64,000 bases of DNA from Streptosporangium becharense. Its GTDB lineage: Bacteria; Actinomycetota; Actinomycetes; Streptosporangiales; Streptosporangiaceae. The stretch spans positions 2,356,001 to 2,420,000 of the forward strand of contig NZ_JACHMP010000001.1 of assembly GCF_014204985.1 (NCBI RefSeq). Reading direction: 5' to 3'. Shown piece after piece: positions 26,624 to 28,765 of this stretch (the stretch's first letter is position 1; every line of letters starts with the position of its first letter). Position numbers and translations under genes: made by a program. The notes beneath the pieces were generated by a model that saw nothing but the letters and a program-made list of their open reading frames with translations, did not search any database and had not been told where the DNA came from.

Positions 26624-28765
26624 GTGCTCGAAATTTCGAACCTTACCCATACCTACGGCAGCGGCCCGAGCGCCCACCACGCGCTGGGCGGCATCGACCT
26701 GAAGGTCGCCGAGGGTGAGCTGGTGTGCATCGTCGGTCCCTCGGGCTGCGGCAAGTCCACCCTGTTGCGCTCCATCGCGGGGCTGCTGCGGCCCAGCGGC
26801 GGGGAGGTGCTGCTCAACGGCGTCCGCATCGAGCAGACGCCGGACAACCTGGCCGTGGTCTTCCAGGACTACAGCCGGTCCCTGTTCCCGTGGATGTCGG
26901 TGGCCGACAACGTCGCGCTGCCGCTGCGCCGCAAGGGGATGGACAAGAAGCAGCGCAGGGAGGCCGCCGTGGAGGCGCTCTCCGAGGTCGGCCTGGAGAA
27001 GGCCGCGGGCAAGTTCCCCTGGCAGCTGTCCGGGGGCATGCAGCAGCGGGTGTCCATCGCCCGCGCGCTGGCCTACCGACCGGCCCTGATGCTGATGGAC
27101 GAGCCCTTCGGCTCGGTCGACGCCCAGACCCGCGAGGATCTGGAGGACCTGACCCTGCGGGTCCGCAGCATGCACAACATGACCATCCTGCTCATCACCC
27201 ACGACATCGACGAGAGCGTCTACGTCGGTGACCGCGTCGTGGTCCTGTCCAAGTCCCCCGCCGGGATCGTGGGTGACCTGCGCGTGGACCTCCCCGGGCC
27301 GCGCGACCAGATCACCACCAGGGAGCATCCCGACTTCGTGCACCTGCGCGGCGAGGTCGGCCGCCTGGTACGCGGCGTTCCGGGGCCGCCGGACTCCGCG
27401 GCCGGAGGCGCGGCGCCGCGCTCCGCGCCGGAGACCGCCACCCCCGGCGCGGACACCACCGGGCCGGACACGGACGTCCCCACGCCGGACGCGGACACCA
27501 CCGGGCCCGGCACGGACGACACGGACACCACCACGTCTGACGCGGACGGCACGGACACCACCACGTCTGACGCGGACACCCCCGCCTCCGGCGCGGACAC
27601 CACCGGGCCGGACGGCGAGGCTCCCGAACCCGGAGCCGGCGACCCGGAACCGGAGACGGACACCATCGAGCCCGGCGCGGACACCCCGAAGCCAGGCGCG
27701 GACAAGGACCGGGGTGTGCCGGGCGACACCGGTCCGGCCCCCCGGCCGGAGAGGATTCACATGAGCGACCCCCAGGCGCCGATCTGGGATGCGATCGGTG
27801 GGATCTCACGCTTCGCCGCCCTGGCCACCATGGCCGAGCTCGGCTGCGCCGACGAGCTGCGAGACGGCCCGTTGAGCGTCGATGAGCTGGCCCTGCGGTG
27901 CGGTGCGAACCCGTCCTCACTCGCCAGGGTGTTCCGCCAGCTCGCCGCGATGGGCGTCGTCACCACGACGACGCCCGGCGTGTACGAGCTGACCGAGGCG
28001 GGTGCCGCGCTCCGCAGTGACGTCCCCGGCTCGCTGCGGCCCGCCGTGCGGATGATCACAGAGGACGGCTTCTGGTACGGCATGGGCAAGGTCCCGCAGA
28101 CCGTGCGTACCGGCACCTCGGCCTTCGTCGAGCGGTTCGGCCCCCTGTACGGCTACCTCAAGGGCAGGCCCGAGGCCGGTGCGCTGTTCGACGACTACAT
28201 GACGGCCAGGGCACAGCCGTTCGCCACCGCCGTGGCGTCGCGCTACGACTTCTCCGGGGTGGGGACCGTGGTGGACGTGGCCGGCGGCAAGGGCCACATC
28301 CTCGCGTCCGTCCTGAAGTCCAACCCAGAGGTCGGCGGGGTGCTTTTCGACCAGGAACAGGTGGTCGGCGGGGCGAAGGAGTTCTTCGCCGAGGCCGGGC
28401 TTGAAGATCGTTGCAAATTCGTCGCCGGTGACTTCTTCGCCTCGGTTCCCGCCGGCGGAGACGTCTACCTGCTCGGCAGCGTGCTCCACAACTGGTCCGA
28501 CGACGACTGCGTGCGAATCCTGGGCAACGTCCGGGAAGCCGTCGCCGACGACGGCCGGGTGCTGCTGATCGAGGCCGTCGTACCGGACGAGGACGTCCCG
28601 CACATCAGCAAGGACGTCGACATGCGCATGCTCGCCCTCTTCGGGGAGGGCATGGAGCGCAGCGGCTCGCAGTACGCCGAACTGCTGGACAAGGCCGGTT
28701 TCCGGCTCAACCGGCAGCTGGAACTGCCGGGAGGCTTCTCCATCGTGGAGGCCCTGCCGCTCTGA
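26624..28765 (+). CDS. ABC importer ATPase fused to an O-methyltransferase
   Basis: One uninterrupted 713-codon frame. Residues 1-250 are an SsuB/TauB-type ATPase: Walker A GPSGCGKST (38-46), Q-loop Gln81, signature LSGGMQQR (135-142), Walker B LMLMDEP (155-161), His193. Residues 251-379 are a Thr/Asp/Pro/Gly linker with GADTTGP and TDTTTSDAD repeats. Residues 380-713 are a complete plant-COMT-like SAM O-methyltransferase: N-terminal winged helix, SAM motif VVDVAGGKG (549-557), catalytic-type His622 in LHNWSDDDC and the C-terminal GSQYAELLDKAGF. Start GTG 26624 with GAGG upstream. An internal ATG (27761) has its own ribosome site, so the methyltransferase may also be made alone. Fused function unknown; it could tie import of a compound to its O-methylation. 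Confidence 0.88.
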   Translation: MLEISNLTHTYGSGPSAHHALGGIDLKVAEGELVCIVGPSGCGKSTLLRSIAGLLRPSGGEVLLNGVRIEQTPDNLAVVFQDYSRSLFPWMSVADNVALPLRRKGMDKKQRREAAVEALSEVGLEKAAGKFPWQLSGGMQQRVSIARALAYRPALMLMDEPFGSVDAQTREDLEDLTLRVRSMHNMTILLITHDIDESVYVGDRVVVLSKSPAGIVGDLRVDLPGPRDQITTREHPDFVHLRGEVGRLVRGVPGPPDSAAGGAAPRSAPETATPGADTTGPDTDVPTPDADTTGPGTDDTDTTTSDADGTDTTTSDADTPASGADTTGPDGEAPEPGAGDPEPETDTIEPGADTPKPGADKDRGVPGDTGPAPRPERIHMSDPQAPIWDAIGGISRFAALATMAELGCADELRDGPLSVDELALRCGANPSSLARVFRQLAAMGVVTTTTPGVYELTEAGAALRSDVPGSLRPAVRMITEDGFWYGMGKVPQTVRTGTSAFVERFGPLYGYLKGRPEAGALFDDYMTARAQPFATAVASRYDFSGVGTVVDVAGGKGHILASVLKSNPEVGGVLFDQEQVVGGAKEFFAEAGLEDRCKFVAGDFFASVPAGGDVYLLGSVLHNWSDDDCVRILGNVREAVADDGRVLLIEAVVPDEDVPHISKDVDMRMLALFGEGMERSGSQYAELLDKAGFRLNRQLELPGGFSIVEALPL
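27520..27577. repeat. 28-bp direct repeat in the fusion linker
   Basis: Bases 27520-27547 recur exactly at 27550-27577 (period 30), encoding two TDTTTSDAD units. Around them, GACACCACCGGGCC-type blocks near 27455, 27494 and 27597 encode GADTTGP or DADTTGP. All periods are multiples of three, so repeat slippage changes linker length without breaking the frame. Confidence 0.85.
27748..27763 (+). promoter_or_regulatory. Internal ribosome-binding site and start for the methyltransferase
   Basis: GGAGAGG at 27748-27754, six bases, then ATG at 27761-27763. The protein from this ATG (MSDPQAPIWDAIGG) is 334 residues, the normal length of stand-alone bacterial enzymes of the family. It suggests the methyltransferase was once a separate cistron, or still is translated separately. 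Confidence 0.6.

Follow-up and report, generated by a model that had tools for sequence, protein, structure and literature searches.

The 64,000-nucleotide stretch of Streptosporangium becharense DNA analysed here (the window) carries an ABC importer operon with the gene order binding protein, permease, permease and ATPase/methyltransferase. The last gene, which starts nine bases past the stop codon of permease 2, is a 713-codon open frame (GTG start, TGA stop, 713 aa). It encodes, in this order, an NrtD/TauB-like ABC ATPase, a 129-residue linker rich in Thr, Asp and Pro, and a COMT-type O-methyltransferase, both domains being complete. The features of the locus are the following:

19723-23560 and 29843-34450: conservon-like gene sets flanking the operon (histidine kinase with NIT domain, roadblock protein, GTPase-like protein)
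24043-25029, + strand: substrate-binding lipoprotein, NMT1/SsuA-like (Pfam NMT1, 6e-35)
25026-25814, + strand: permease 1 (BPD_transp_1, Pfam 1.1e-16), with a 4-base overlap with the binding-protein gene
25811-26614, + strand: permease 2 (BPD_transp_1, Pfam 2.7e-26)
26624-28765, + strand: fused gene of ABC ATPase, linker and O-methyltransferase, 713 aa (open frame, Pfam)
26624-27373, + strand: ABC ATPase domain, residues 1-250, with the motifs GPSGCGKST, LSGGM and LMDEPFG; best solved relatives CmpD/CmpC and NrtD/NrtC
27374-27760, + strand: linker of 129 codons, acidic, of Thr/Asp/Pro/Ala/Gly, with imperfect repeats and coding-like periodicity (sequence statistics)
27748-27755, + strand: Shine-Dalgarno-like GGAGAGGA inside the fused frame, where the relatives have their ribosome-binding site (duplex energy -7.2 kcal/mol)
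27761-28765, + strand: O-methyltransferase domain, 334 aa plus stop (Pfam); ATG 27761 is the orthologous start codon

In the fused protein, Pfam places ABC_tran (PF00005) at residues 22-162 (113.8 bits, cut-off 25), Dimerisation (PF08100) at residues 383-463 (42.5 bits, cut-off 25.6) and Methyltransf_2 (PF00891) at residues 493-694 (145.3 bits, cut-off 22.3). The ATPase part retains all of its motifs: GPSGCGKST, LSGGM and LMDEPFG, which we take to be the Walker A, signature and Walker B motifs, respectively. In the methyltransferase part, H622-N-W, E650 and E678 (fusion numbering) are invariant in the ten sequences aligned, and glutamates like these two matter in COMT enzymes. The H-x-W motif aligns with the HDW of 6c5b and AlpH and with the HNW of DtpM, and its histidine is described as catalytic in such methyltransferases (PMC10784701, in excerpt). 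The limits of the linker were set between aligned residue 250 of the ATPase and the methyltransferase start codon of the relatives (27761). The structure model of the fusion is weak (mean pLDDT 54, from a shallow alignment of 14 sequences) and supports one statement alone, namely that no structure is predicted in the linker, which has a pLDDT of about 26-32 and lacks predicted secondary structure.

The reading of the linker as coding sequence has to be supported by more than the absence of stops. An open frame alone was dropped as proof, because under a first-order Markov model of each linker the probability of meeting no stop over its length is 0.70 in the window and 0.55 in G222, a second genome of the genus with the same fusion. 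At lags that are multiples of three, identity is higher than at the remaining lags, by 0.091 in the window and by 0.146 in G222; the highest values among 500 Markov controls are 0.028 and 0.024, respectively, none of the 500 reaching the observed value for either linker. Purines make up 0.70-0.85 of codon position 1 in all nine sub-windows of both linkers (five windows of 120 bases in that of the window), in a constant frame, and no three-base periodicity is seen in the downstream intergenic stretch of the window. The periods of the tandem repeats are multiples of three in six of the seven arrays of the window linker (15, 21, 30, 51, 21, and 21; the seventh has a period of 14 and 2.1 copies) and in all eight arrays of the G222 linker (L091 2542-2829). 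Both linkers are acidic, with 29 D/E among 129 residues in the window and 32 among 118 in G222, and contain only five and four hydrophobic residues, respectively. The idea of the linker as a repeat that recurs in other parts of the genome was also discarded, since apart from itself it has only one weak match (E 0.07), antisense and at the same position.

High-G+C repeats are prone to errors in sequencing and assembly, and the linker contains such repeats. It could thus be argued that there are in fact two genes here and that their join stems from a missed stop or a frameshift in repetitive GC-rich DNA, an explanation that we consider very improbable. The linker keeps one frame throughout, G222 has the same architecture, and the fused gene lies within a 7.79-Mb contig of a two-contig genome. 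Given the periodicity, the in-frame repeats and the open frame of G222, an assembly error of this kind in the window is unlikely. The initial annotation, which described a single frame of ATPase, Thr/Asp/Pro linker and methyltransferase, is therefore confirmed by the open frame, the Pfam domains, the periodicity of the linker and the G222 gene.

The annotation had also proposed a search for the same domain order in other genomes, and G222 carries it: its fusion is one 705-codon open frame (the called gene has 702 aa) with a different acidic linker of 118 residues. Searching 297 genomes of the family with the methyltransferase domain (E up to 1e-100) yielded 89 places in 87 genomes, all of which were read, as 90 loci of which L194 repeats L105. 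The two genes are fused at two places (the window and G222), the ATPase gene is separate and directly upstream at 55 and downstream at three, and the remaining 29 have no ATPase within the stretch examined, which reaches 1.5-2 kb upstream and includes permease 2 in 25 of the 29. A second, stricter search of the family (1e-140, 341 genomes) returned 17 genomes, none of them new. The 55 separate pairs, from the same actinomycete family, are 70-90% (ATPase) and 50-81% (methyltransferase) identical to the window genes and share their order, but have a stop codon between the genes, which in many cases apparently overlaps the next start (e.g., L108 and L109). As a side observation, the methyltransferase gene precedes the ATPase gene in three genomes (L104, L106, and L107).

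Among the 16 genomes of the genus, two are fused, six have adjacent separate genes (G003, G005, G008, G009, G010, and G012), three have a methyltransferase gene without a directly adjoining ATPase gene (G004, G011, and G212), and five have an ATPase match only (G001, G002, G006, G007, and G227). The look-up outside the family covered 78 loci (the best of 594 relatives) and eight genomes of other families; of the 78 loci, none of those with a methyltransferase match at 1e-15 has ATPase and methyltransferase in an unbroken frame. Long open frames in the relatives, of up to 895 aa, were considered as further fusions and rejected, as none except that of G222 holds both domains unbroken. A conserved domain architecture was likewise discarded, given the 55 of 89 places with adjacent but separate genes. 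The first interpretation of the locus stands in that the fusion is real and recurs once, and has to be corrected in that the joined form is the state of particular lineages: it is a real, recurrent and lineage-specific gene fusion.

Whether the gene was joined once or twice depends on the position of the two genomes and on the likeness of their linkers. In the operon tree (17 genomes, five operon proteins, 1470 columns), G222 groups with the unfused G012 and G010 (100/100), and the window genome with the unfused G003, G005 and G009 and with G011 and G212 (100/100). Both data sets reject a clade uniting the window genome with G222, the operon proteins at an AU p of 3.6e-34 and gyrB (16 genomes) at a p of 5.2e-5. 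Unlike the operon tree, the gyrB tree puts G222 with G007 and G001 and, when midpoint-rooted, the window genome in the same half as G222, a disagreement that makes the branching behind the two fusions tentative. At the DNA level the two linkers are no more alike than expected by chance, 449 of 500 codon shuffles equalling or exceeding the observed score. The linker proteins resemble each other weakly (5 of 500 shuffles attain their score), which may be due to shared composition or to a distant common origin. Since the two fused genomes do not form a sister pair and no DNA likeness connects their linkers, two independent stop losses, each with in-frame expansion of the spacer, are the simplest explanation.

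A single old fusion in a common ancestor, or one lateral transfer, that was later split in several lineages would agree with the weak likeness of the linker proteins and with the different placement of both fused genomes in the operon and gyrB trees, which makes lateral movement of the operon possible; moreover, the number of changes (two) cannot separate gain from loss. On the operon tree, however, it needs one gain and two losses against two gains, the unfused sisters have a stop codon and a Shine-Dalgarno site resembling those of other genera, and the dissimilar linker DNA also speaks against it. We consider a single origin improbable.

The start of the methyltransferase gene has been kept within the fused frame. 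In the unfused adjacent relatives compared, AGAGAGGA-like sites are followed about 5-7 bases on by the methyltransferase ATG; the window retains GGAGAGGATTCACATG in frame before this ATG, and G222 retains AACAGGAGTGTCAATG. The duplex energies are -7.2 kcal/mol in the window and -7.7 in G222; 12 unfused relatives with an adjacent ATPase gene span -4.6 to -7.6, and three without one span -4.7 to -6.5. An equally strong match stands before 79 of the 606 other + strand ATGs of the window, and hence the case for an internal start rests on the conserved position of the site and not on its strength. Two products are expected because the ATG and the Shine-Dalgarno site were kept, and a free methyltransferase is probably made too, from the retained start, in both fused genomes. 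It had been suggested that the importer would hold two methyltransferase domains; with a separate methyltransferase probable, exactly two are not required. The likewise suggested capture and O-methylation of an incoming compound at the cytoplasmic mouth is a hypothesis.

The compound handled by this system can be approached through the relatives of both domains. Bacterial COMT-type methyltransferases of the LaPhzM type are stand-alone enzymes of natural-product pathways. The best solved matches of the fused methyltransferase, which extend across most of the domain and score between 246 and 177 bits, are LaPhzM (6c5b, the nearest), DtpM (8rdm), CalO6 (4z2y), MmcR (3gwz) and AlpH (8h3t), together with CalO1. 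Whereas LaPhzM, DtpM, CalO6 and MmcR stand alone, the window methyltransferase sits in an importer operon; it shares the HNW/HDW motif with 6c5b, AlpH and DtpM and also has a dimerisation domain. The 6c5b structure is described as LaPhzM of the myxin pathway (PMC10784701 and PMC10477347, in excerpt). AlpH is related to methyltransferases and, according to an excerpt, transfers no methyl group, so that likeness alone is not proof of methyl transfer (PMC10477347). For the ATPase, the nearest NCBIfam models are those of nitrate, taurine and SaoA, and it remains below the cut-off of all 25 families shown: 226.4 bits against a curated 291.8 for TIGR01184 (NtrCD, nitrate), 217.4 against 357 for the taurine model and 190.2 against 395 for the sulfonate model. 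As no cut-off is reached, no class of transported compound is assigned.

In G222 and G008, the gene beside that of the methyltransferase encodes an FAD monooxygenase. The monooxygenase of G222 scores above the cut-off of subfamily PRK07538 (544.6 bits against 400), and among solved structures it matches 2rgj/3c96 best (E about 1e-112; the next is at 3e-31), 2rgj being described as PhzS (PMC8717658, in excerpt). PhzS-like matches at E up to 1e-70 are present in 11 of the 16 genus genomes. In eight of them the match is the G222 protein or is 72-80% identical to it; those of G003, G006 and G009 reach only 52-57% and were left out as likely paralogues. The PhzS-like gene lies less than 3 kb from the best ATPase match or from the fused gene in all eight genomes that have one. 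The ATPase beside it in G001, G002 and G007, 73-76% identical to that of the window, could be a paralogue. In the window genome itself, no PhzS-like gene is seen at E 1e-70. These neighbours in the relatives, along with the closest solved structures, point to a substrate that is aromatic and possibly phenazine-like, and the gene set fits a putative imported aromatic or heteroaromatic compound that would be hydroxylated and O-methylated. That importer and methyltransferase share one substrate is plausible in view of the conserved operon, the PhzS-like genes and the fusion itself. In several genomes the monooxygenase gene is convergent with that of the methyltransferase (L195 5214-6461, L227 8341-9582); in G012 only a 110-aa PhzS-like piece is called (L198 10260-10592). 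In G227, which has no close methyltransferase, the region includes a gene for a carbon-nitrogen hydrolase, and G006 has a clustered relative of it (L236 3467-4534, L235 9001-10491).

The reading that we favour, with a confidence somewhat above even, is as follows. An ancestor would have had separate genes for the importer ATPase and, after it, the O-methyltransferase, at the end of the operon. The ATPase stop codon would then have been lost and the spacer expanded in frame into a disordered acidic linker, the same course being taken independently in G222. Two products would result, one being the long chain of ATPase, linker and methyltransferase, which becomes part of the importer, and the other the methyltransferase alone, translated from the internal start that was kept. 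The enzyme would O-methylate a hydroxylated aromatic brought in by the importer, a PhzS-like hydroxylase standing alongside in several relatives, and the fusion would keep part of the enzyme at the membrane. The translation of both products, the order of events, the substrate and the benefit of tethering are what we infer here from the sequences.

Alternatively, the joining of the genes by stop loss and repeat slippage may have been neutral and without benefit, the domains remaining independent (or the linker being cut) and the free methyltransferase doing the job. This is possible, and we regard it tentatively as a competing explanation: the linkers differ between the two genomes and resemble products of slippage, the internal start is retained, and the pair is unfused at 55 of 89 places. 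Selection points in the same direction. The dN/dS of the ATPase is 0.18-0.34 in four comparisons that include a fused genome and 0.10-0.23 in three that do not, and that of the methyltransferase 0.26-0.36 and 0.22-0.28, respectively, values that indicate purifying selection on both domains, slightly weaker in pairs including a fused genome. Nonetheless, the occurrence of the same join in two non-sister genomes out of 16, together with the long, periodic, in-frame linkers, points to a long chain that is translated and, at the least, tolerated. A stronger version of the favoured two-product reading, which we regard as unlikely, has the tethered methyltransferase methylating the aromatic as it leaves the channel and so trapping it inside; the arrangement would have been selected at least twice from the conserved pair of ATPase and methyltransferase genes, with the internal start adjusting the ratio of tethered to free enzyme.

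Among known systems, NrtC/CmpC are some of the closest solved relatives of the fused ATPase and also bear a soluble C-terminal domain on a cytoplasmic ATPase. Their extra domain is binding-protein-like (the window binding protein matches CmpC 269-523), whereas that of the window is a methyltransferase: the NrtA-homologous C-terminal domain of the NrtC/CmpC kind is not in the fusion, and PF08100 and PF00891 are found instead. The C-terminal domain of NrtC is described as regulating uptake (PMC6603209, in excerpt). Convergent joining of neighbouring, functionally coupled genes has its own precedent in the ALDH-ADH fusions AdhE and BdhE, two independent joins (PMC12454647, in excerpt); these are enzyme families with interdomain contacts, whereas here there are two genomes and an apparently disordered linker. 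In open-access literature searched with narrow terms, no transporter with an ATPase-methyltransferase fusion was found among the matches listed, so that the annotation, which knew of none described, is not contradicted. A C-terminal domain on such an ATPase and the convergent fusion of neighbouring genes are already known. The fusion is a good indication that the importer and a tailoring methyltransferase handle one compound, and gives a handle on an operon present in many genomes of the family. With two apparently independent fusions beside unfused relatives, it also offers a natural experiment on enzyme tethering, in which uptake, trapping and product can be compared. If true, importer-tethered methylation would be the ABC counterpart of group translocation, and if tethering alters uptake, trapping or product, this class of transporter would have a new mode of working, in which ABC import includes modification of the substrate.

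The rest of the operon is shared by the relatives, which carry the same importer set of an NMT1-like binding protein and BPD_transp_1 permeases. Across the operon tree, the binding protein is 74-85% identical to its orthologues in 15 of the 16 other genomes, the exception being G113 at 66%; TIGR01728 scores 142.1 bits on it, below the cut-off of 163.5, and its structure model is poor (mean pLDDT 53.7). For permease 2 the list of open reading frames gives a GTG start at 25718, but the translation makes the ATG at 25811, which overlaps the stop of permease 1, likelier. Genes of the two flanking conservon-like sets (kinase, roadblock and GTPase-like) are found on both sides of the operon in 9 of the 13 genus genomes read (window included), on one side only in G004 and G010, and on neither side in G011 and G212. 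An antisense open frame of 700 codons lies over the operon (25658-27760, - strand) and is most likely a by-product of the high G+C content. In G222 (L195 3155-4942) and G012 (L198 10806-12591), a second binding protein, 45% identical to that of the window, and a permease are located beyond the methyltransferase; no ATPase gene is called beside them, and they may share that of the operon. Finally, in four genomes of the g71 genus (L136, L141, L147, and L150) the operon is near the end of contigs of about 8-9 kb, which suggests nearby repeats.
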